Assembly: GCF_019890615.1 (NCBI RefSeq)
Contig: NZ_JAINVZ010000012.1
Coordinates: 62,001 to 126,000, forward strand
From: Streptantibioticus parmotrematis
GTDB taxonomy: Bacteria; Actinomycetota; Actinomycetes; Streptomycetales; Streptomycetaceae
Reading direction: 5' to 3'
DNA length: 64,000 bases
The position numbers and the translations under genes were made by a program. Below the pieces are notes generated by a model. It saw only the letters and a list, made by a program, of their open reading frames with translations. It did not search any database and was not told the DNA's origin. Shown here one piece after another: positions 51,850-64,000 of the stretch. The stretch's first letter is position 1; the number at the start of each line of letters is the position of its first letter.

Positions 51850-52899
51850 TTGACGAGCGTCGGGGTCGAGGGGGATGACGCCTGGGGGCGGGTGCTCGTG
51901 GAGGTGGGGCGGAGCGGGCGGCGGCTTCGGCGGGAAGAGCTCGACGCTCTGCGTGCGTACGGGGACCGGGCGGCCGAGAGCGGGCGCGGGCTCGCCGAGC
52001 TGGTGGACGAGCGGCTTGCCGCCGCCGGTGCGGTCTGGGCGGGGCAGACCGTGGACGCCTCGTCGATGACGGCACTGCGGGCGGCCGTCGCCGCGATCGC
52101 GGACGGGCACAGCCGGGCCTACCGGGAGCGGCTGCGGCGTGAGGAGGCGGGACGGCGGGAGTTCGTCGCGGACCTGCTCAGCAGCCGCAGCGACGTAGGA
52201 AGGCTGGCCGAGCACGCGGAGCGGTTCGGGATCAACCTGGCCTGCTCGCACGTCGTCGCGGTGGCCGCGGGCGACGGCTACGACCTGGACGACCCGCTGG
52301 TCCGGGCGCTGGAGCGGCAACTGCTCGGCCGCTTCGGCGAACAGGAGGTGCTGCTCGCCGTCAAGCACGGGCGGCTGGTGTGCGTCGTGCCGTCCGGGCC
52401 CGGCGAGGACGCGGCGGTCAAGGCGTTCGCCGAACTGACCCAGGGGCGCCGGGTCGTCGTCGGGCGGCCGCACAGCGGACCCGGTGGCGTCGTGCACTCC
52501 TACGAGGAGGCCCGGTCGGCGCTGGAGCAGGCCGATCAGCTCGGTGTCGAGGGGCAACTGCTGCACGCCGCCGACCTGTTGGTGCTGCCCGTGCTGCTGC
52601 GGGACCGCGACGCGCTGGAGGATCTGGTGCGCAGCGTGCTGGGCCCGTTGCGGAACGCCCGGGGCGGTGCCGGGCCCCTGCTGGAGACGCTGACCGCCTA
52701 CGCGGACTCCCGTTACGTCTCGGCGGAGGCGGCGCGGCGGCTGGGGCTGAGCGTGCGGGCGCTGGCCTACCGCGTCGAACGCGTCGTCCGGCTCACCGGA
52801 CTCGACCCGGACGACGCGTTGCAGCGCTACACGCTGGAGACGGCCGTGTTCGGCGCGAGGCTGCTGGGGTGGCTCGACCACGCGCCGCCTCCGGCGTAG
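51850..52899 (+). CDS. PucR/CdaR-type transcriptional regulator
   Basis: 349 residues from TTG 51850 (GGGAGGAAG upstream). The middle part (about 110-220) is a GGDEF-related domain as in CdaR (LACSHVVAVAAGDGYDLDDPLVRALERQLLGRFGEQEVLLAVKHGRLVCVVPSG). The C terminus (about 285-345) is the PucR HTH: LLETLTAYADSRYVSAEAARRLGLSVRALAYRVERVVRLTGLDPDDALQRYTLETAV. This is the standard architecture. The last 73 bp overlap the 3' end of the convergent giant ATPase gene. It may regulate the adjacent flotillin locus, but that is only inferred from position. Confidence 0.9.
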   Translation: MTSVGVEGDDAWGRVLVEVGRSGRRLRREELDALRAYGDRAAESGRGLAELVDERLAAAGAVWAGQTVDASSMTALRAAVAAIADGHSRAYRERLRREEAGRREFVADLLSSRSDVGRLAEHAERFGINLACSHVVAVAAGDGYDLDDPLVRALERQLLGRFGEQEVLLAVKHGRLVCVVPSGPGEDAAVKAFAELTQGRRVVVGRPHSGPGGVVHSYEEARSALEQADQLGVEGQLLHAADLLVLPVLLRDRDALEDLVRSVLGPLRNARGGAGPLLETLTAYADSRYVSAEAARRLGLSVRALAYRVERVVRLTGLDPDDALQRYTLETAVFGARLLGWLDHAPPPA

Positions 52900-55800
52900 G
52901 CGGCGCACAACGTCCGCCAGCGGTCGGCCTGTTCGGGGGTGGCGCGGTCGCGCAGGTGGGCGAGCTTGAGCAGGTTGGCCTCCGCCGCGCCGCCGAGGGT
53001 GCGCGCCTCGGCGAGGTAGTGCTCGTCCAGCAGGGCCTCGACCTCGGCGTCGCTCTGCACGGGGTCGATCCGGGCGGCGAACTGCGCCATCGTGCGGTAC
53101 GAGCCCTGGAGCAGGAACGGCGGTTCGGCACGGGCGGACTCGTCCTGCGCGGCGGACGCGATGTAGGCGCTGTTCACGGCGAGGACCGTGCGCTGGACGC
53201 GGCGGAGCCGGGTGAGGGCGGCCAGTACGCGGTCCAAGTCGATTACCGGACAGCTGAGTTGATCGGCATGGGCTGTCGGGTCGCCGTCGGCCAGCGCGAT
53301 CAGCAGGCGCAGGTCGGCCGGGTCGGTGCCGGCGAGAGGGGCGAGCACCGGGTTGGCCGCGAGCGTGTTCTCCAGGAACGACTGCGCGAACAGGCCCTGG
53401 TGGGTGGTGAAGACCTCGCCCAGGTTCCACACGTCGGCGCGGTTGGCGAGCATGTCGGGGATCGTGAAGCGCTGCCCGTTCGCGGTGTGCGGGTTGCCCG
53501 CGAGGCAGACGGCGAAGCGGCGTCCGCGCAGGTCGAAGCTGCGGGCGACGCCGTCGCTGACGGCTTCTACGCGGCGCTGGGCGTCACACAGCGGGATGAA
53601 CTTCTCCAGCAGCTCCGCGCCGACGTGCTGGATGTCGTCCACGTGCAGCAGCACGTTGCTGCCCGCCTCCAGGGCGAACACGATCTTCTCGACCTCGCGC
53701 CGGGAGGCGGCGTCGGGGGCGCGGTCCGGGTCGAGGGAGGTGGTGCCGGTGCCCAGCGCGGGGCCGTCGACGCGGACCATGAGCAGGCCGAGGCGGTCGG
53801 CGACGTATTCCAGCAACGTGGTCTTGCCGTAGCCGGGCGGGGACAGGAGCAGCAGCAGGCCGCTGCGGTCGGTGGTCGCGGTCGTGTCGAGCGTGCCGAG
53901 TTGCCTGGCCAGGTTGTCGCCGATGAGCGGCAGGTAGACCTGGTCGATGAGCTGGTTGCGCACGAATCCGGCCAGCGGGCGCGGCCGGTGGTCGTCCAGC
54001 CGCAGCCGGGCCCGTTCCGCCGCCAGGGCGTCGGCGCGCCGCCGCTGGAAGGCACGGAAGGCCGGCGCCCGTTCCTCGCGGAACTCCCGTGCCTGGTACG
54101 GCAGTTGGTCGACGCGTACGGTCAACCGGCCGTCGCGGACGCGGGGGTGGGAGCCGAGGAGGCCGGTGACGGTCTCGCCGACCGGAGCGGTGATCTCGTA
54201 GCGGGGGAGCCCGGGCGCGCACAGGTGGGCCACGGCCTCCGCGAGGCCGTCGTCGGACGGGGTGCCGTCGTCATCGTCGGGCGCCTGGGCGCTCGTGTCG
54301 GCGTCCGCGTACGCGCTCAGCCAGGCCGTGGCGAGTTGGTGGCGGGCGGACAGGTCGGTGGCGAGTGCCTGGAGGTCGGCGGCGAGGCCGGGGGCGGCGT
54401 CGGTGCGCCGGAAGCCGTCCAGCAGGGTGCGGGCGGCCACGCCGGTGGCGAACCCTTCGTGTTCGTCGGCGAGTTCGGCGACCAGGTAGTCGCCGGTGCG
54501 GGGCACGGTGGGCAGGCCGACGGAGGCGATGAACTGCTCGACAGCGTCGGACAGTTCGGCCGCGAGGGCGGTCAGCTGCGTCGTCGCCCCTCCGGGCCCG
54601 AAGTGTGCGCGGGCCGACGTGAGGGAGCGGGCGCGGCGCTGCCATGCGGCACGCTGCGGGTCCGTGGCGCCGTGGGCCCAGAACAGCTGGGCGGCGCACC
54701 GCACTTCCGCGGGGTGTTCCAGCAGCCCGGCCCCGGCACGCAGCCGCAGCAGCGCGCCGAGGACGAGGGCGGCGTCGTGGTCGTGGACACCGCGTTCGTA
54801 CCCCTCGTCGTACGCGCGCTCGGCCGCGCGGCGTACCTGGTCGAGCAGCGGGCCGCCAGTGAGGTCCGGGAGCAGGCCGCCGGAGACGTCGGCGAGCGGG
54901 CCGCCGTTGACGTCGGGGAGCAGCGTGGCGGCCAGGTACTCGGCGCGGTAGAGCGCCGGTGACTCGCTCACCAGCGGCTGGGTCCAGAACGCGGTGTCGG
55001 GAGGCAGTTCGGGCAGCCGGGCGGGACGGCGGTAACCGGTGCCGGTGACGAGGAACGCGAGGCCGTCGCCGTCGGGCCGGAGGGTCAGCTCGACCGGTTC
55101 GCGGCGGACGGCGAAGCGGTGGCGCCCCAGCCGGACGCTCGCACCGCCGTCGTCCGACAGGTCCGCGCGGTCGCGCAGGTCGCGCAGCGCGGTGCGCACG
55201 GCGCCGAGCAGTCCGTCGTCCAGCTCCTGGGCGCGCACCTGGTCGTCGAGGCCGCGCAGTTCGTCCGCCGCGGCCCGTACTCGTACCGCCATCGGGTCGG
55301 CGGCGCGGGCGGCGTGGATGTCGGCGGCAGTGGTGAGCCCGGCGAGCCTGCGGCGCAGGGCCTGGAGCGCGCCGTGGGCGGAGACGGCCAGGCGGTCGGC
55401 GCGGGCGGCGGCCTCGTCCAGCAGGGTCTGGCGGCGGGCGGCGAAGGCCTGCCGGATCTCCTCGCGGCGCAGGGCCAGATCGCCCGCGAGGTCCTGGGCC
55501 TCGGCGAACCGGGCCTCCAGCGCGTCCACGCGCAGCAGCAGCCGGGCGAGGTGGTCGTCGCAGGCGGCCGGGGTGCCGGCGGCGGACAGGGCCGCGGTGG
55601 TGGCCTGGGCGAGCAGTGCGGACTCGGCCGCGTGCGCGGCGTGGTGCTCGGCTTCCAGCAGGGCGCGGCGGCGGTTGGCCAGGATCGCGCGGGCGCGGTT
55701 GACGGCCGCCAGCACCTCGCCGATGGCCAGCAGGACGGCCGTTCCCGCGCCCGGGTCGGCGGCGACCGCGCCGGTGACCAGGTCGGTGACGGTGGTCAGC

Positions 55801-57638
55801 GCGTCGGCCTGCTCGGTGAGGCGTTCGCCGAGCCGCTCGGCCTCGGCGGCGGTGGGGACGTCCTGCGCCTCGTCGGCTGCGGTGCGTGCGGCGGCCAGCG
55901 GGGTGGCGAACGCGTCGGGGCCCGCGAAGAACGCGAAGGCGCGGTCGGTCGCCGCCGCCAGCTCGTCGGCCAGGTCCGCCTCGACCCGCTCCAGCGCGGC
56001 CAGGTCGAGCTGGGGCAGCTCCCGCAGTGTGACGACGCGGCCCTGGGCGCGGCGCAGTTCGGCGAGCAGCCGGGTCCACGCCTCGGCGGCGGCGGGCGGC
56101 TCGCCGTGCGAGCGGCGCACCAGCGCGGCGGCCTCCTCCCGGGCCTGCTCCAGCGCCTCGGCGGCGCGGGCGGCCCGGGCGTGGACCCGGTCCCGTTCCT
56201 CCGCCATCCGCTCGGCGGTCTCGCGCAGTGCGGCGAGCGGTTCGAGCAGGCCGGTGCCGTCGAGCCAGTAGTGGCGGTCGGCGGCCTTGGCGCAGGCGTC
56301 CAGGAGCAGTTCGGGGGCGGCCGCCGCCCGCTCGTCCTGGGCGGCGGCGGTCGCGGTGCGCACCACGTCCAGGCAGTCGGCGATCCCGCGTACCAGGTCG
56401 GCGTTGCCGATCCGGGCCAGCGGCCCGTCGCCGACCGGCTGGGCGGCGGCGTGGTCGGCGGACTGGAACGGGGTGCGCCACAGCTGGAGTTCGTGCGTGC
56501 GCACCGGATCGCGGTCCGGCTTGAGCAGCACGAGCGTGCCGTCGGGCAGCAGGGCGTGCGCCGCGCCGTGCAGCGCGGCGGCGGCCTCCCGGCGCACGGT
56601 GTTCCACGGCAGCAACAGGACCTGCGCGCGGCCCGGGCGGCGCAGGACGTAGAGCAGGTCCTCGCCGTTGGGCGAGGGGATCACCGCCTCGAAGCCCGGG
56701 GCGCCCCCCTCCGTCCGGAACGCGCGGTGGGTGCCGTCGGCCAGTTCGTAGCCGCCGGGGAACAGCAGGCCCTGGTCGGCCGGGAGCAGCCGGGCGCCGT
56801 GCGCGAGCGAGTCCTGTCGACGGACCGAACCGGTACGGGTGTTGACGACCAGATGGCGGTCGGCGGTCTCGTTGTACGGGCGCACCCGCAGGAGCAGCAG
56901 CGGCCCCGTCGGCGCGTACGCGACGACGGCGTCCGCCAGGCTCTGCAACGGCTCGTCGACCGGCTCCTCGAACAGCGTCCGGTCGCCGGGGACGGAACGC
57001 ACCGTGAGGGCGCCGCCGGTGGTGGCGACGGTGACCGCGCCCTCGGCCCCCTCGACCCTGATCCGGCCGTGGTCGTGGTGCTCGCGGCCGGTCGGCGTCC
57101 ACGGCAGCTCGTACACCGGCGGCTGCGGCAGGTCGCGTTCACCGTGGTTGCCCAGGTACTCGGCGCCGTCTTCCGTCAACTGCCAACTCAGGACGCGCTG
57201 GTCGCCCTCGTTGTCGCCGGTGCGGAAGACCGCGAGCAGCCTGCCGGGCGTCGTGCGCACCAGGTCGGCGAGGCGGGCGTCCCGGTAGTAGCGCAGCAGC
57301 TCCGCCAGGTCGCGATGGAACCGCTCGTCGTCCAGCAAGCCCGGTACCGAATCCCGTTCGAGCACCGTGCCGTCCGGGGTGTGCAACGAGAGCAGGCCCG
57401 CGTCGAGGTCCGGCGCGGTGGTGCCCAGCAGCAGGACGCCGGGCCGCACCGCGACGATCCCGCGGGCGGTGCCCTCTCCCGCGGTGCGCGGCCGGGCCGA
57501 ACCGGTCAGCTCCAGCGCCGGGGAGCCGAACGCCTCCTGCCGCGCGGTGTTCAACTCCTGCGCCCACCGTGCCAGTTCGGCGGCGCGTTCGGCGAGCCGT
57601 GCCCGCAGGATCTGGTAGGTGCCGTCCTCGACGCCCAT
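52827..57638 (-). CDS. Giant AAA+ ATPase with N-terminal DUF3686-like region (DNA repair ATPase family)
   Basis: 1603 residues from ATG 57638 (GGGAAG upstream). Residues about 1-440 form a beta-rich domain with repeated VLLLG/GLLSLHTPDG and LLLLRVRPYNETADRHLVVNTRTG elements, like a DUF3686 region. Residues about 470-870 are long Ala/Glu/Arg coiled coils (RVHARAARAAEALEQAREEAAALVRR). Residues about 880-1200 are mixed. The AAA+ module is at about 1240-1420: Walker A SPPGYGKTT (Lys1272), Walker B LLHVDDIQH (Asp1334-Asp1335), sensor-1 CLAGNPHT and NRADVWNLGE. No membrane segment. Proteins of this build are named DNA repair ATPase in databases without strong experimental basis, as far as I know. 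It follows the flotillin gene by 63 bp. Confidence 0.88.
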   Translation of the reverse strand: MGVEDGTYQILRARLAERAAELARWAQELNTARQEAFGSPALELTGSARPRTAGEGTARGIVAVRPGVLLLGTTAPDLDAGLLSLHTPDGTVLERDSVPGLLDDERFHRDLAELLRYYRDARLADLVRTTPGRLLAVFRTGDNEGDQRVLSWQLTEDGAEYLGNHGERDLPQPPVYELPWTPTGREHHDHGRIRVEGAEGAVTVATTGGALTVRSVPGDRTLFEEPVDEPLQSLADAVVAYAPTGPLLLLRVRPYNETADRHLVVNTRTGSVRRQDSLAHGARLLPADQGLLFPGGYELADGTHRAFRTEGGAPGFEAVIPSPNGEDLLYVLRRPGRAQVLLLPWNTVRREAAAALHGAAHALLPDGTLVLLKPDRDPVRTHELQLWRTPFQSADHAAAQPVGDGPLARIGNADLVRGIADCLDVVRTATAAAQDERAAAAPELLLDACAKAADRHYWLDGTGLLEPLAALRETAERMAEERDRVHARAARAAEALEQAREEAAALVRRSHGEPPAAAEAWTRLLAELRRAQGRVVTLRELPQLDLAALERVEADLADELAAATDRAFAFFAGPDAFATPLAAARTAADEAQDVPTAAEAERLGERLTEQADALTTVTDLVTGAVAADPGAGTAVLLAIGEVLAAVNRARAILANRRRALLEAEHHAAHAAESALLAQATTAALSAAGTPAACDDHLARLLLRVDALEARFAEAQDLAGDLALRREEIRQAFAARRQTLLDEAAARADRLAVSAHGALQALRRRLAGLTTAADIHAARAADPMAVRVRAAADELRGLDDQVRAQELDDGLLGAVRTALRDLRDRADLSDDGGASVRLGRHRFAVRREPVELTLRPDGDGLAFLVTGTGYRRPARLPELPPDTAFWTQPLVSESPALYRAEYLAATLLPDVNGGPLADVSGGLLPDLTGGPLLDQVRRAAERAYDEGYERGVHDHDAALVLGALLRLRAGAGLLEHPAEVRCAAQLFWAHGATDPQRAAWQRRARSLTSARAHFGPGGATTQLTALAAELSDAVEQFIASVGLPTVPRTGDYLVAELADEHEGFATGVAARTLLDGFRRTDAAPGLAADLQALATDLSARHQLATAWLSAYADADTSAQAPDDDDGTPSDDGLAEAVAHLCAPGLPRYEITAPVGETVTGLLGSHPRVRDGRLTVRVDQLPYQAREFREERAPAFRAFQRRRADALAAERARLRLDDHRPRPLAGFVRNQLIDQVYLPLIGDNLARQLGTLDTTATTDRSGLLLLLSPPGYGKTTLLEYVADRLGLLMVRVDGPALGTGTTSLDPDRAPDAASRREVEKIVFALEAGSNVLLHVDDIQHVGAELLEKFIPLCDAQRRVEAVSDGVARSFDLRGRRFAVCLAGNPHTANGQRFTIPDMLANRADVWNLGEVFTTHQGLFAQSFLENTLAANPVLAPLAGTDPADLRLLIALADGDPTAHADQLSCPVIDLDRVLAALTRLRRVQRTVLAVNSAYIASAAQDESARAEPPFLLQGSYRTMAQFAARIDPVQSDAEVEALLDEHYLAEARTLGGAAEANLLKLAHLRDRATPEQADRWRTLCAAYAGGGAWSSHPSSLAPNTAVSSV

Positions 57639-57701
57639 GACTGCTTCCCGTGTCCCCTTGTCCGGCCCGGTACGTGTCGTTGTCTCTTCGATGGCCGCGC
57701 G

Positions 57702-59795
57702 CTACTTGTCGGTGGTCGTGCCCGCGTCGGCCATGCCGTTCATGTTCACCGTGGCGCTGGAGCCGTTGACGAGCCGTGCCGGGTCCAGGGGCGCGGTGAT
57801 GTCCAGCGCCGACGTGGCATCGGGCGCCGCGGCGCCCAGCAGCTTCATCAGCAGCGCCAGGTTCCACGGCCCGCCGGCCCCGAGGGACTTCAGCACCTCC
57901 GTGGCGTCGTCGCTGAAGCGCTTCTCACCGCTGAGCCAGTCCGCGCCCAGTGCCCTGACCGTCTCCGATCCCTGTACGGCACCGTCGATCGACTTGCCGA
58001 AGGACACCGCGCTCACCAGCCGTTCCAGGAACACGCTGTCGCCGCCGACGATGTCGATGTCCGCGCTCTCCAGACCCGTGGCGAGCACCGTCGCCTGCGC
58101 CTCGGCGACCTTGCCCTGCACCTCCAGCGCGGCGAGGCGCACCTCCTTGTCGGCGGCCAGCCGCAGCCGGAACTCCTCGTGGGAACGCGAGACCTCGTCC
58201 AGCGCGGCCATCGCCGCCGCCTTCTTCTCCAGTCCGGCGGCCTCGCCGAGCAGCTTCTCGCGGATGCCCGCGGCCTCCGCGTTCGCCTTGCCCTGGGCGA
58301 CGGCCGCCTCGGCCAGGCCGACCTTCTCGATCGCCTCGGCCTTCTCCTTCAGGCCGGCCGCCTCGCCCTCCAGCCGGGCCCGCACCCCGGCGGCGTCGGC
58401 CAGCGCCTGCCGTTCCGCCACCTCGGCCCGCGCGAGCCCCGCCGCGCCCGCCATGGCGCGTTCACCCTCGGCGCGGCGCACGTTGGCCGCGGCCTCCAGC
58501 TCCGCGCTCTTCTGCCCGGCCTCGGCCAGCACCAACTGCTCCTTCGCCCGCAGGTGCGCGGCCTGCTCCGCGGCCTCGGCGGCCTTGATGTCCTTGACGT
58601 GCTGCTCCTGCGCCTGGGCCTCGGCGGCGATGACCACGCTCTGCCGGGTGCGTTCCGCCTCCTGCACCACGCGGACCCGCTTGATCTCCTCCTCCTGCTC
58701 GGCGACGGTGCGCTCCACGGCGATCCGCTCGCGCACCACGTCGGCCACGCCGCGCCGCTCGACCTCGATCTCCTTGTCCATCCCGGCCCTGGCGAGCTGG
58801 ACCTCCCTCTCCCGGCCCACGACCTCCAGCAGCCGGTCCTTCTCGATCCGCTCGGTCTCGACCGCGAGCACCCGTTCCCGGTTCTTCTCCGCTACCGCGA
58901 TCTCGCGCTGCTGGTTCTCCCGCTGCACGCCGAGCAGTTCCTCGGTCCGCAGCAGGGCGCCGTGCGCCTTGAGCCGCTCCTCCTCCTGCACCATCGCGGT
59001 GGCCGCCTCCTCCTGCGCCCGCAGCGTCTCGATGCCCTTGCGCTGCCGGATCTCCGCCTCCTCGCGCCGCCGCTCCAGTTCGAGCACGGCCTCGCGGGCG
59101 TCGACGTCCTGGCGGGTGATCTCCATCTGCTCGTTGCGCTGGAAGTCGTTGGTGCGGATGTGCTCCAGCGCGGTCAGTTCGGTGATCTTCCGGATGCCCT
59201 GGGCGTCCAGGATGTTGGACGGGTCCAGCTGCGACATCGGGGTCTGCTCCAGATGGTCGATCGCGGCGTCCTCCAGGTGGTAGCCGTTGAGGTCGGTGCC
59301 GATGGCGGCGACGATGCGGTCGCGGAACTCCTCGCGGTGCGTGTAGAGGTCGGCGAAGTCCAGCTGCTTGCCGACGGTCCGCAGCGCCTCGGCGAACTTC
59401 GCGCTGAACAGCGTCTGCAACGTCTCCTGGTGGCTCGCCCGGTCGGTGCCGATGGCCTGGGCGACCTTGATGACGTCCTCGACGGTCTTGTTGACGCGCA
59501 CGAAGAAGGTGATCTGGATGTCGGCGCGGATGTTGTCCTTGCAGATCATGCCCTCCTGGCCGGTCCGGGAGATCTCGATGGTCTTCACCGAGATGTCCAT
59601 GACCTCCGCGCGGTGCAGCATCGGCATGACGAGGGCGCCGGTGAAGGTCACCGTGGCGCCCTTGGGGCGCGAGATGATCAGGGCCTCGCCCTGCACCACC
59701 TTGCGGAACAACCGGCCGAAGAGCAGCAACGTGCCCAGACCGACGAGCAGAAGGACGGCGACGAGCACACCGGCACCGATGGTGACGACAGACAT
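57702..59795 (-). CDS. Flotillin-family (SPFH) membrane scaffold protein
   Basis: 697 residues from ATG 59795 (GGGAAC upstream). One N-terminal membrane helix (about 6-28: GAGVLVAVLLLVGLGTLLLFGRLF). SPFH domain about 30-215 (VVQGEALIISRPKGATVTFTGALVMPMLHRAEVMDISVKTIEI, DNIRADIQITFFVRVNKTVEDVIKVAQAIG). Then an exceptionally long Glu/Ala/Arg coiled coil (about 220-560) and a C-terminal domain (IDIVGGDSVFLERLVSAVSFGKSID). This is the YqiK type, longer than FloT. It should build membrane-bound oligomeric cages or rafts facing the cytoplasm. It is upstream of the giant ATPase and downstream of the His-rich OB protein. Confidence 0.93.
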   Translation of the reverse strand: MSVVTIGAGVLVAVLLLVGLGTLLLFGRLFRKVVQGEALIISRPKGATVTFTGALVMPMLHRAEVMDISVKTIEISRTGQEGMICKDNIRADIQITFFVRVNKTVEDVIKVAQAIGTDRASHQETLQTLFSAKFAEALRTVGKQLDFADLYTHREEFRDRIVAAIGTDLNGYHLEDAAIDHLEQTPMSQLDPSNILDAQGIRKITELTALEHIRTNDFQRNEQMEITRQDVDAREAVLELERRREEAEIRQRKGIETLRAQEEAATAMVQEEERLKAHGALLRTEELLGVQRENQQREIAVAEKNRERVLAVETERIEKDRLLEVVGREREVQLARAGMDKEIEVERRGVADVVRERIAVERTVAEQEEEIKRVRVVQEAERTRQSVVIAAEAQAQEQHVKDIKAAEAAEQAAHLRAKEQLVLAEAGQKSAELEAAANVRRAEGERAMAGAAGLARAEVAERQALADAAGVRARLEGEAAGLKEKAEAIEKVGLAEAAVAQGKANAEAAGIREKLLGEAAGLEKKAAAMAALDEVSRSHEEFRLRLAADKEVRLAALEVQGKVAEAQATVLATGLESADIDIVGGDSVFLERLVSAVSFGKSIDGAVQGSETVRALGADWLSGEKRFSDDATEVLKSLGAGGPWNLALLMKLLGAAAPDATSALDITAPLDPARLVNGSSATVNMNGMADAGTTTDK

Positions 59796-59979
59796 GGCTG
59801 TTCCCTTGGACTGACCTTGCCGTGGATGAACGGGAGTTGGCGCACGGAGGCGCGGGGTCGTGGCGTTGACGTGAGGGGGTCGACGGGGGCAGGGAGACGC
59901 GGCGTCGCGTCAGCCGCTTCGGGTCGACCGCTCTACGGCAGGCGGGACTTGGCCGGTCTACGGCGGAGTCGGCATGCGA

Positions 59980-60777
59980 TCAGCAGCCCGTCGCCGGGGG
60001 AGCGGGCATGACCCGGAAGAACTCGCCCTCGGCGTCGTAGTCGTAGATGAGCGCGGACATCCCGGCCCGCAGGGCGTTCTCCGGTCCGGCCGCGTCGTCG
60101 GGTGCCAGGCGCACCTGCACCAGCGCCGCGGAGCCGTCGGCGGCGCGTACCTCCGCCTGCCCGAAGTCCGGCCCGACCCGCCCGGTGCGGATCACGCACC
60201 CCAGGCCCACGAAGTCCCGCCGGGAAGGCGGCGGAAGCGGCTCGGGCGTCATCCGGCGCAGCGGTGACGCGAGCAGGCGCGCCCCCAGCCATCCGCCGGC
60301 CAGGGCCATCGGCAGGACGAGCCCGCGGGCGTCCCCGCCCAGCCAGGTCTGCCCGGCCAGCGCGGTGAACCAGGCGAACGCCACGACGAGCGAGACCGCC
60401 ACGGTCACGGGTATGCCGCCGAGGCCCAGCAGGCGGGCCCGTCCGGCGTGCGGACGCCCTACGGGGCCGTGCTGTACGGGATCGTGCCGTACAGGGTCGT
60501 GGCCGGGGCGGCCGGTGCGCTCCCCGCCGTGGTGGCCGTTGTGGTGGCCGCCGTGAGCGTGCCCGGAGCCGTGCCCTGCATGTCCTCCGTCGTGGCCACC
60601 GCCGTGGCCGCCCCCGTGCCCCCCGCCCTGGCCGCCCTGGCCGCCGTGGCCCCCGTGGCTTCCGTGCGGGTGCGCTCCCCCGAGGAGCACCAGCAACCAG
60701 TAGCCCACCACCACGACCAGGGCGAAGCTGAAGATCACGGTGGGATACCCCGTGACCGCCCCCACAAAGCCACGCAC
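59980..60777 (-). CDS. Three-helix membrane protein with His/Gly-rich loop and OB-like domain (NfeD/YqiJ-like)
   Basis: 265 residues from GTG 60777; the frame extends upstream without a good start. Helix 1 is about 12-32 (TVIFSFALVVVVGYWLLVLLGG). Next comes a loop of about 50 residues made almost only of Gly and His (HGSHGGHGG, GHGGGHDGGH, HAHGGHHNGHHGG), likely to bind metal ions. Helices 2 and 3 (about 117-160) follow, then an OB-like C-terminal domain: RDFVGLGCVIRTGRVGPDFGQAEVRAADGSAALVQVR and GMSALIYDYDAEGEFFRVMP. YqiJ/NfeD proteins partner flotillins genetically. Here it is the first gene of the flotillin-ATPase group, 184 bp upstream of flotillin. Confidence 0.82.
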   Translation of the reverse strand: MRGFVGAVTGYPTVIFSFALVVVVGYWLLVLLGGAHPHGSHGGHGGQGGQGGGHGGGHGGGHDGGHAGHGSGHAHGGHHNGHHGGERTGRPGHDPVRHDPVQHGPVGRPHAGRARLLGLGGIPVTVAVSLVVAFAWFTALAGQTWLGGDARGLVLPMALAGGWLGARLLASPLRRMTPEPLPPPSRRDFVGLGCVIRTGRVGPDFGQAEVRAADGSAALVQVRLAPDDAAGPENALRAGMSALIYDYDAEGEFFRVMPAPPATGC

Positions 60778-60910: not shown

Positions 60911-62461
60911 TCACATCGCGGTGTTCGGATCCCCGGGAGCGGTCGGGAGGACCAGGCGGAAGACACAGCCGCGGCCGGGGCGGGTGTCGAGTTCCAGGCG
61001 GCCCCGGTGCGCCTGGGCGATGGACGCGGCGATCGCGAGGCCCAGGCCGCTGCCCCCGCGCGCCCGGGTGCGGGAGGGGTCGGCCCGGTAGAAGCGCTCG
61101 AAGACGTGCCCGGCCTGCTCGGGGCTCAGCCCCGGGCCCTCGTCGGCGACCTCGATGACGGCGACGGGGGTGCGCGCCGCCAGCGGCGGTGTCACGCTGC
61201 TGCGGCCGGGGCGGTCCGTGCCGCCCGCGTAGGCGCTCGCCCGGGTCGCGCCCACCCGTACGTGGACGCGGGTGCCGGGCGGGGTGTGGGCGTGGGCGTT
61301 GGACAGCAGCGCGGCCACGACCTGCCGCAGCCGGTGGTCGTCGCCCGTCGCCTCGACGACCTCCAACTCCCTTGCTCCGCCGGGGTCCGAGGGCGTCGGC
61401 AGCGGGCCGAGGTCGACGGGGTGGGAGGGCTGGTGCACGGCGGCCGTGCTGACCGCGTCGGCGGCGCCCGAGAGCAGGTCCACCGGTTCGCTGCGGTAGG
61501 ACGGCTCGCGGTCGAGCGTGGCCAGCAGTTGCAGGTCGTTGACGATCAGGCTCATGCGTTCCGCGTTCTGGGCGACGAGCCGGTGCGCTTCGCGTTGTTC
61601 GGCCGCGGAACGGTGCTCGTGGCGCAGGGCCAGCTCCGCGTAGCCGTGGATCGCGGTGAGCGGGGTGCGCAGTTCGTGGCCCGCGTCGGCGACGAAACGG
61701 CGCAACCGCGCCTCGGACGCCTCCCGGTCCCGCAGCGCCTGCTGGAGCCGGTCGAGCATGCCGCCCAGGACCCGGCCGAGCCGCCCGATCTCGGTGCGCG
61801 GGTCGGTGTCGGCCGGCCTGAGTCCCGGCTCGCCCGCGGTGATCCGCCGGGCGGTGCGCTCCAGGCGGGTCAGGGGGAGCAGACCGATCCTTATCACCCA
61901 GGCCCCGACCGTGATCAGGCCGAGGGTGGTGACGGCGAGCACGGCGACGTCCAGCCACAGCAGTTTGGACGTGGCGCCCTCGACCGTGTCCAGCGGCAGG
62001 GCGACGACCGCGGTCATGCCGCCGGGCCCGGGTTGCGCCAGCACCCGCCAGTGCCCGGATCCGGTGGTCGCCGCGACGGAACGCGGCGCGCCCGTGCGCA
62101 GGCCGAGGGCGGCGCGGTCCGCGGCGAGGCCGGGCCCCGGCAGGCGGGAGGAGTAGCCGAGGTTGCGGGTCAGCAACCGCCCGGAGGCGTCGTAGAAGTA
62201 GACCCGGAAGTCGGAGGGGAGCACGGCGGCGGAGTCCCGGGGCGCGGCCGGCCCGCCGTGCGGGACCTGGCCCGCCTCCGCCTGGTGGAACGCGAACGCG
62301 GGCGGCCGGAATCCGGCGAGCTGCTGGTCGACGCGGCCGACCAGCCAGGAGCGCAGGACGGCGTAACCGACGGCCTGCGAGGCGAGCACCGCGAGCGCGG
62401 CGAGCACGGTGACACCGAGCAGCAGACGGGCGCGCAGGGACTTCGGGCCGGCCCTCCTCAC
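60911..62461 (-). CDS. Sensor histidine kinase (module 2)
   Basis: 516 residues, GTG start, overlapping the response-regulator stop by 4 bp (GTGA). Membrane helices at about 10-36 and 168-192, an external sensor with FHQAEAGQVPHGGPAAPRDSAAVLPSDFRVYFYDASGRLLTRNLG, HAMP, then DHp with His in DAGHELRTPLTAIHGYAEL. ATPase part: LLSNAHAHTPPG, EVADEGPGLSPEQ, FERFYRADPSRTRARGG and GSGLGLAIAA. Same architecture as 14849-16384; the N-box carries SNAHAHTP like its paralogue's ANARTHTLP, so both belong to one subfamily. Confidence 0.93.
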   Translation of the reverse strand: MRRAGPKSLRARLLLGVTVLAALAVLASQAVGYAVLRSWLVGRVDQQLAGFRPPAFAFHQAEAGQVPHGGPAAPRDSAAVLPSDFRVYFYDASGRLLTRNLGYSSRLPGPGLAADRAALGLRTGAPRSVAATTGSGHWRVLAQPGPGGMTAVVALPLDTVEGATSKLLWLDVAVLAVTTLGLITVGAWVIRIGLLPLTRLERTARRITAGEPGLRPADTDPRTEIGRLGRVLGGMLDRLQQALRDREASEARLRRFVADAGHELRTPLTAIHGYAELALRHEHRSAAEQREAHRLVAQNAERMSLIVNDLQLLATLDREPSYRSEPVDLLSGAADAVSTAAVHQPSHPVDLGPLPTPSDPGGARELEVVEATGDDHRLRQVVAALLSNAHAHTPPGTRVHVRVGATRASAYAGGTDRPGRSSVTPPLAARTPVAVIEVADEGPGLSPEQAGHVFERFYRADPSRTRARGGSGLGLAIAASIAQAHRGRLELDTRPGRGCVFRLVLPTAPGDPNTAM

Positions 62462-63207
62462 GGGGCCTGGGCCTCGGTACGGCCACGGGGCAGGCGCAGG
62501 CAGTAGCCGACGCCGCGGACGGTGTGGATCAGCGGGGGATCGAAGCAGTCGATCTTCTTGCGCAGGTACTTCACGTACGTCTCGATGATGCGGGCGTCGC
62601 CCGCGAAGTCGTAGCCCCAGACGTGTTCGAGGATCTGGTCCTTGCTCACCACGCGGTTGGCGTTGGCCATCAGATAGCTGAGCAGGTTGAACTCGGTGGG
62701 CGACAGCTGGATGTACTGCCCGGCGCGGTGGATCTCGTGGGCGTCCCCGTCGAGCAGCAGATCGCCGAAGCGCAGGACGTTCGGCGCGGCCTGCGGGATC
62801 TCCTCGCCCGCGGTGCCGGTGCGGCGCAGGATCGCCTCGATCCGCAGCAGCACCTCCTCGATGCTGAACGGCTTGCTGACGTAGTCGTCACCGCCCGCGC
62901 TCAGCCCGGTGATGCGGTCGGACAGGTCGGTGCGGGCGGTGAGGAAGAGAACGGGGGTGTCGTCGCCCGCGGCCCGCAGCCGCCGCGTCACCTCGAACCC
63001 GTCCACGTCGGGCAGGAGCACGTCGAGCAGCACCAGGGAGGGCGCCAGCCGTTCGATCTCCAGCAACGCGGACTGCCCTGTGTCGGCGCTGCTCACCGCG
63101 TAGCCGGCCAGCCGCAGGGCCGATTCCAGCAGAGAGCGGATGCTGGGCTCGTCCTCCACGACCAGCAGCCGGTGCCGCGACCTGGCCGTGGCCTGCCCGG
63201 CCGTCAT
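62458..63207 (-). CDS. OmpR-family response regulator (module 2)
   Basis: 249 residues from ATG 63207, with GGAAGG 6-7 nt upstream; an ATG five codons earlier has none. Receiver: VVEDEPSIR, Asp in LVLLDVLLPDVDG, FLTARTD, YVSKPFS. Winged helix: SPTEFNLLSYLMANANRVVSKDQILEHVWGYDFAGDARIIETYVKYLRKKID and VRGVGYCLRLPRG. TrcR-like. It is preceded on the same strand by a GT-C glycosyltransferase gene 140 bp away. Confidence 0.94.
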   Translation of the reverse strand: MTAGQATARSRHRLLVVEDEPSIRSLLESALRLAGYAVSSADTGQSALLEIERLAPSLVLLDVLLPDVDGFEVTRRLRAAGDDTPVLFLTARTDLSDRITGLSAGGDDYVSKPFSIEEVLLRIEAILRRTGTAGEEIPQAAPNVLRFGDLLLDGDAHEIHRAGQYIQLSPTEFNLLSYLMANANRVVSKDQILEHVWGYDFAGDARIIETYVKYLRKKIDCFDPPLIHTVRGVGYCLRLPRGRTEAQAP

Positions 63208-63346
63208 GCCGATGCCTTCCATCCACTTCCCTCAAGGGTGCGTGCGGTTCCATTCTCCCCGATCCCCCCGGGGGCGTGCCGTGCGTCGGGGACGCGCATG
63301 CCGACGGGGGCCGTGCCGGTGGACCCGGCACGGCCCCCGCGGGCGG

Positions 63347-64000
63347 TCACGAACCGGCGGTGCAGAGGTACAGCGAACCGGTGCCGGAGCCGCCGAACAT
63401 GGCGGCCGGGCCGGAGGACCGCGCACTGCTGGTGCTGCCGCTGTCCTTCACGCCGTAGTCCTCGGCCGGGACCTTCGAGCAGTGGGCGGTGACCCACTTG
63501 CTGATCGCCTGCGACGACCCGCCGGAGCTGCCGCCCATGCCCATGCCCATCGCCGAGCCCGAGCCCTGGGAGAGGACGTAGCGCACCTTGCCCTCCTTCA
63601 CCATCTGCTCGAACGCGGTGAGGGTGGGCTGCGGCACCGAGCCGGAGAACCCGCCGATCGGCAGCACCTTCTCGCCGGTGACCAGGATGTACGACTCGGC
63701 CTGACGCCATCCGATCGTGGCGAGCGGGTACTCGGCGCCGTCGCGGTGCTCGCTGACGTAGTTCCACAGCTTGCGCTCGTCGGAGGTGAGCGACGCCGTG
63801 GCGGTCATGCCGCCCATCCCGGCCGTCGCGCCCTTCGCGTCCTTGCCACCCTTGGCACCCTTCGCCACGGACGACCCGTGCGACGTCGACCCCTTGCCGC
63901 CGAAGGACGCGGGCATGCCGCCGCCCATGCCGCCCATGGACGAGGGCCCGGCACCGGCGTCGAACGCGCTGCCGTCGTAACGGGAGTCGAACGCCGACGC
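63347..64000 (-). CDS. GT-C (ArnT/PMT-like) glycosyltransferase, C-terminal part, truncated by window edge
   Basis: The frame is open to base 64000. What is visible is a Gly/Met-rich segment (MGGMGGGMPASFGGKG) and the external C-terminal domain: TSDERKLWNYVSEHRDGAEYPLATIGWRQAESYILVTGEKVLPIGGF, SVPQPTLTAFEQMVKEGKVRYVL and WVTAHCSKVPAEDYGV. It shares the IGGFxGxxPxPTLxxFExMV signature with the end of 17713-19926. Two Cys near the end (AHCSK, LYLCTAG) probably form a disulfide not present in the paralogue. The membrane domain lies outside the window. Confidence 0.9.
   Translation of the reverse strand, partial: ASAFDSRYDGSAFDAGAGPSSMGGMGGGMPASFGGKGSTSHGSSVAKGAKGGKDAKGATAGMGGMTATASLTSDERKLWNYVSEHRDGAEYPLATIGWRQAESYILVTGEKVLPIGGFSGSVPQPTLTAFEQMVKEGKVRYVLSQGSGSAMGMGMGGSSGGSSQAISKWVTAHCSKVPAEDYGVKDSGSTSSARSSGPAAMFGGSGTGSLYLCTAGS

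Follow-up and report, generated by a model that had tools for sequence, protein, structure and literature searches.

The stretch of DNA analysed here (the window) comprises 64,000 nucleotides of contig NZ_JAINVZ010000012.1, positions 62,001 to 126,000, from Streptantibioticus parmotrematis, an actinobacterium with a 7.4-Mb genome. Three of its genes encode a YqiJ-like small membrane protein, a flotillin-like SPFH/Band_7 protein and a very large AAA+ ATPase. A first-pass annotation of this DNA had described a minus-strand series of genes for a His-rich membrane protein of the NfeD/YqiJ kind, a flotillin with a long coiled coil and an AAA+ ATPase of 1603 residues, and the open reading frames confirm this arrangement:

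59980 to ~60777, minus strand: gene for the YqiJ-like small membrane protein; GTG start chosen, ~265 amino acids (aa); frame open to 60966
57702-59795, minus strand: gene for the flotillin-like SPFH/Band_7 protein; open reading frame with ATG start, 697 aa
52827-57638, minus strand: gene for the AAA+ ATPase, Pfam DUF3686; open reading frame with ATG start, 1603 aa; relatives are annotated "DNA repair ATPase"

In the direction of transcription, the YqiJ-like gene comes first, then the SPFH gene and last the ATPase gene, with intergenic gaps of 184 bp and 63 bp, respectively. The minus strand of this region showed no terminator-like site, and a scan for consensus promoters and terminators gave no signal above shuffled sequences. 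An open frame of 1630 aa on the plus strand (55119-60011), antisense to the flotillin and ATPase genes, is taken as an artefact of high G+C content.

The three genes form a real inherited module. Among 249 genomes of the host family, the DUF3686 ATPase is present in 130 and the ATPase-type flotillin, scored by SPFH-domain search, in 132, namely all those with the ATPase plus two others, G316 and G359 (130 of 132 flotillin-bearing genomes also have the ATPase). Copy number matches as well, since G128 and G192 each carry two ATPases and two flotillins. In all of the 124 loci with full-length genes (124/124), ATPase and flotillin lie on the same strand at a median distance of ~92 bp, and a profile search places a YqiJ-like gene upstream in 108 of these 124. 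The ATPase and flotillin distance matrices are correlated (r 0.87), partly through shared ancestry, and the best of 500 permutations reached 0.21. The nearest named relatives of the ATPase are from Streptomyces hyaluromycini, S. tateyamensis and Streptacidiphilus jiangxiensis. Some individual loci depart from the common pattern: G316 and G359 are the only two of the 132 flotillin genomes without a DUF3686 match, and the flotillin frame of G316 has a stop. The paired module copies lie at L013 and L015 in G128 and at L048 and L049 in G192; some copies look disrupted, with an ATPase frame of 576 aa in L013 and an ATPase in pieces in L018.

A phylum-wide draw of 149 genomes found the DUF3686 ATPase in only 3 of 119 genera. 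Outside the Actinomycetota, members of the Deinococcota, Bacteroidota and Pseudomonadota have the trio, among them Deinococcus, Hymenobacter, Proteus, Halomonas, Vibrio and Pseudomonas (plasmid pQBR103). A DNA similarity search of E. coli genomes that started from a Proteus sequence brought up no relative of the ATPase. Genes for a CesT-like protein and PspA lie upstream of the trio in Hymenobacter, and those for YjfI, PspA and other yjf products in pQBR103. The pQBR103 locus (L143, 986-14190) reads yjfI-pspA-rhomboid-DUF2491-DUF350-DUF1190-glutathionylspermidine synthase and then the trio, which places two stress operons one after the other in the same direction. The joint conservation of the genes over several phyla excludes a chance association. 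The first-pass annotation had made its idea of a system depend on the neighbours being conserved together in other genomes, and a neighbourhood survey finds them so, both in the family and in other phyla.

The small protein has at least two transmembrane segments, a His-rich insert and a C-terminal beta/OB-like part. It has no significant Pfam match, and YqiJ_N and YqiJ_OB were unmatched both in this protein and in the relatives tested. A profile of its relatives matches the membrane gene upstream of the flotillin in Deinococcus (2e-24), Hymenobacter (4e-28), Proteus (2e-34), Halomonas (1e-39), Pseudomonas (8e-36) and Vibrio (7e-11), and E. coli YqiJ shows weak similarity to it (14.4 bits). 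The Hymenobacter homologue is annotated DUF1449, the YqiJ family. Judged by these profile matches, the small protein is homologous to the membrane partner encoded in other phyla, the DUF1449-annotated one included. The His-rich stretch singled out at first is real in the window protein (15 His in 50 aa), with a median of 3 per 50 aa among the relatives; it does not hold as a family feature, being a recurring but variable insert, and a His-rich loop as core metal-binding feature was dropped as a candidate.

The SPFH protein consists of an N-terminal transmembrane segment (aa 8-26), an SPFH region (aa 33-176) and a long coiled coil, and matches Band_7 in Pfam at 45.6 bits. No match to Flot (PF15975) was found in the SPFH proteins of the window or of pQBR103, whereas E. 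coli YqiK scores 139.8 bits; the ATPase-linked SPFH proteins have another conserved C-terminal region instead. Their profile matches the first ~440 aa of YqiK at 183 bits. The E. coli YqiJ-YqiK pair resembles the module in combining an SPFH protein with a YqiJ-type partner in the same order, but it has no adjoining ATPase gene, and YqiK, of 553 aa, ends in Flot, which the 697-aa window protein is without. From this single comparison with YqiK, the conserved flotillin C-terminus is a candidate docking site for the ATPase.

The ATPase matches the full DUF3686 profile (PF12458) at 385.8 bits (2.8e-115; curated cut-off 25 bits); in addition, it matches DUF7902 (9.6e-16) and, barely above the cut-off, AAA. 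Two AlphaFold models of parts of the protein, built from 46 homologues, have predicted local distance difference test (pLDDT) values of 87 and 88, and the main elements are as follows:

56475-57512, minus strand: beta-propeller, ATPase aa 43-388, within DUF3686; AlphaFold pLDDT 87
55149-56426, minus strand: helical arms, ATPase aa 405-830, from the AlphaFold model; contain DUF7902
52944-53981, minus strand: AAA+ module, ATPase aa 1220-1565, MoxR/NorQ/CbbQ-like fold; model pLDDT 88
53814-53843, minus strand: Walker A SPPGYGKTTL, aa 1266-1275; SPPGYGK invariant in 132 homologues
53625-53651, minus strand: Walker B LLHVDDIQH, aa 1330-1338; DD and QH invariant in the 132 homologues, which span four phyla

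The best Foldseek matches of the modelled propeller are WD40/YncE propellers, with VIA Z scores of 8-10. The middle part of the protein is helical in the model, and the arms are predicted to contain helices of ~45-58 residues. With a predicted template modelling score of 0.57 for the first model, it is uncertain how propeller and arms are placed relative to each other. The first-pass annotation had given the ATPase very long coiled coils; it has these helical arms instead, and the long coiled coil is that of the flotillin. For the AAA+ module, the remodelling chaperones NorQ and CbbQ make up the ten best VIA rows (Z 15-16), ahead of Clp and dynein (13-14); against NorQ 9qh9 the Z score is 16.1, with 242 of 256 residues aligned and a root-mean-square deviation of 3.8. 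The motifs around the ATP site (SPPGYGKTT, DDIQH, GNP, PDMLANRAD and LQGSYR) are almost invariant across the 132 sequences. The modelled fold supports a remodelling chaperone.

The same association of flotillin, YqiJ-type protein and AAA+ enzyme has already been described, with or without a CesT/Tir-PspA dyad, by Ravi et al. (2024; PMC11237479), where PspA-less versions of the operon are said to be widespread and a role in sub-membrane assembly is proposed. The operons of that account share with the window a band-7/flotillin protein, a YqiJ-type transmembrane protein and an AAA+ protein with coiled coil and beta-propeller: in the window, a Band-7/coiled-coil transmembrane protein lies beside a YqiJ-type gene, and the AAA+ protein is modelled with an N-terminal propeller and helical arms. 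The full version of the operon, as set out there, includes the CesT/Tir-PspA dyad, which the window operon does not have; the abbreviated version does not require PspA, and the window operon fits it. As further differences, the window operon has an adjoining PucR-type regulator, and neither DUF3686 nor a MoxR-like fold is named in the accessible text. Because the trio is listed there, the window operon is a further case of a type that has been described computationally and is experimentally almost untouched. As a system, the trio is not new. Literature searches found nothing on DUF3686 by name or on a "DNA repair ATPase" with flotillin and, judged by abstract, nothing relevant on MoxR with flotillin.

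The best-studied relative of the module is probably the bac/Psp-like operon of Pseudomonas aeruginosa. There, bacA-F are six co-transcribed genes whose products go up together in a bacA mutant (PMC10948618). YjfI, PspA, a small membrane protein, the flotillin PaFlo3 and an ATPase are encoded in this one operon (bacABCDEF, PA3728-PA3732 region; PMC10948618; PMC8190622), and PA3728, which adjoins the flotillin PA3729, is listed as an ATPase (PMC8190622). It differs from the window operon in including PspA and YjfI and in having a proposed sigma54-type promoter. Osmotic shock induces the PspA-like PA3731 (PMC2587700).

Two kinds of neighbouring gene recur beside the module. The first is a regulator that converges on the ATPase gene in the window:

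51850-52899, plus strand: PucR/CdaR-type regulator with GGDEF_2 and HTH_30; convergent with the ATPase gene, whose 3' end it overlaps by 73 bp

Of 41 family loci, 35 have such a gene close to the module, as against 0 of 40 random 20-kb regions. Its position and orientation vary among the family loci, and it was not found beside the module in the other actinobacterial orders and phyla examined. The window protein has the top GGDEF_2 score of the 7 such genes in its genome. The second kind is monovalent cation transport, whose genes flank 34 of 121 loci and 1 of 40 random regions. The families concerned are unrelated (NhaA, CPA exchangers, NhaD-like proteins, TrkA_N and a Na+:alanine symporter), and the trait requires 17 parsimony changes on the ATPase tree, with 10 changes for the 12 occurrences of NhaA. 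Control families differ only slightly (ABC, 22 loci against 8 random regions; MFS, 5 against 1). In Nocardia, NhaA lies 211 bp downstream of the module. Na+/H+ antiporters and TrkA_N adjoin the module in varied arrangements in many Streptomyces and one Nocardia, as in L131 (14724-17887), L118 (10497-12485) and L128.

Taken together, these data lead us to favour, with some reserve, a Psp-like machine for envelope or ion stress, in which a flotillin cage would gather membrane complexes for the ATPase to remodel. By analogy with known SPFH/NfeD pairs, the YqiJ-like and SPFH proteins would form an oligomeric cage or scaffold at the inner face of the cytoplasmic membrane. The ATPase, by analogy with NorQ hexamers, would form a MoxR/NorQ-like AAA+ ring, and this ring, with its N-terminal propeller and helical arms, may be recruited to the scaffold, where it would spend ATP to remodel, assemble or repair the membrane protein complexes held there; both this activity and its clients are conjectural. 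PspA, encoded elsewhere in the genome, is a possible partner, and the PucR-type regulator may control the module in the host family. The likeliest stress would be loss of proton motive force or of cation balance, because of the recurrent Na+/H+ and K+ transport neighbours and the link to Psp. A stress role, one of the two possibilities first raised, fits the relatives that lie beside PspA and YjfI genes and, probably, the P. aeruginosa operon (PMC10948618).

Several observations weigh against this proposal. Both Walker motifs had been reported as intact, which holds for Walker A; Walker B is present as DDIQH, in which Asp replaces the usual catalytic Glu and no Glu follows the first Asp. MoxR enzymes are usually paired with a VWA protein, and Pfam finds no VWA domain in the three proteins. 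Without a VWA partner and without a DE Walker B, the ATPase is called MoxR-like and not a member of MoxR: it shares the AAA+ fold of NorQ/CbbQ, but adds the propeller and helical arms, has DD in place of DE, and lacks a VWA partner in the trio. The actinobacterial operons are without PspA, and the single PspA of the host genome lies on another contig. In P. aeruginosa, deletion of paFlo3 lowered biofilm by ~20% with otherwise almost no phenotype and no oxidative-stress defect (PMC13086221), and PA3728 is no more than a presumed DUF3686 protein. The literature examined holds no interaction, ATPase assay or mutant for the trio. Finally, the cation families were chosen after they had been sighted near the module, most matches being in Streptomyces, and for this reason the linkage is a lead only.

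It is conceivable, at perhaps one chance in a handful, that the genes are adjacent through shared regulation alone, with flotillin and YqiJ organising microdomains and the ATPase acting as a separate cytosolic chaperone. In favour of this are the absence of a reported interaction within the trio and the E. coli YqiJ-YqiK pair, which does without an adjoining ATPase. However, the near-perfect co-presence and matched copy number of ATPase and flotillin, the gene order kept over four phyla and the conserved C-terminus common to ATPase-linked flotillins, unlike the Flot of YqiK, all argue against it. We give about even chances to the more specific proposal that the ATPase docks directly on the flotillin cage, for which the first-pass annotation had suggested coiled coils as the contact.

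It is improbable, though not negligibly so, that cation transporters and other membrane complexes are activated, inserted or refolded by the ATPase working at the cage. If true, bacterial flotillins would be compartments for ATP-driven quality control, and the repeated linkage to Na+/H+ and K+ transport genes would be explained. In its narrower form, in which the MoxR-like ATPase would activate or insert Na+/H+ or K+ transporters held in the cage, such quality control of antiporters is quite unlikely: the adjoining NhaA, CPA exchangers, NhaD-like proteins and TrkA_N, with their 17 parsimony changes, speak for it, but 87 of the 121 loci have no cation neighbour, the window among them, and the families were selected post hoc.

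Defence, the other role first suggested, would have the ATPase sense or act on phage at the membrane, and it is less probable still. PA3728-PA3732 do rise in all phage-infected samples (PMC12041424), and the distribution in the family is patchy (130/249 genomes); phage infection, however, is a general membrane stress that induces Psp-type operons. No usable assignment came from NCBIfam or PADLOC; outside the P-loop, PADLOC models found no match (best E 0.006), and no ATPase relative was found in 50,697 phage records. In addition, the recurrent neighbours are transporters and the PucR regulator, no count of defence genes having been made. That the protein is a DNA repair ATPase, the name under which Pfam and PGAP list it, is very improbable: knock-out of the YqiK-like flotillin SO1377 in Shewanella did alter iron metabolism, sensitise cells to H2O2 and raise the mutation rate, for which the authors invoke iron leakage (PMC1468410), but the database name is unsupported because the protein is modelled as an N-terminal propeller, helical arms and a MoxR/NorQ-like AAA+ module, its similarity to RuvB is weak and lies around the P-loop, and its partner genes encode membrane proteins.

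The membrane-stress machine proposed above bears on a wider question, as the role of bacterial flotillins is unsettled and the HflK/C-FtsH complex is an example of an AAA+ enzyme served by an SPFH cage. Here a second AAA+ enzyme, unrelated to FtsH, hardly ever occurs without an SPFH protein of its own, across several phyla and also in Streptomyces, which are easy to handle. If ATPase and flotillin work together, the cage-plus-motor arrangement would extend beyond FtsH, and "DNA repair ATPase", a name that has been widely copied, ought to be given up. A flotillin with a dedicated MoxR-like motor is an attractive and testable idea, although the operon type has been published, and the PucR regulator and cation transporters beside the module point to concrete test conditions.

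Other genes lie near the module. Directly upstream of the YqiJ-like gene in the window, on the same strand, is a two-component pair:

60911-63222, minus strand: histidine kinase and OmpR-type response regulator

It was dropped as a part of the system, as it is not conserved beside the module in relatives. A small Gly/Met/Ser-rich protein is encoded next to the response regulator (63347-63937, minus strand). Among the other loci, a TerB-domain gene (PF05099) lies beside the module in six, for example L122 (3882-4382), and a TerD-family gene lies downstream of it in L144.

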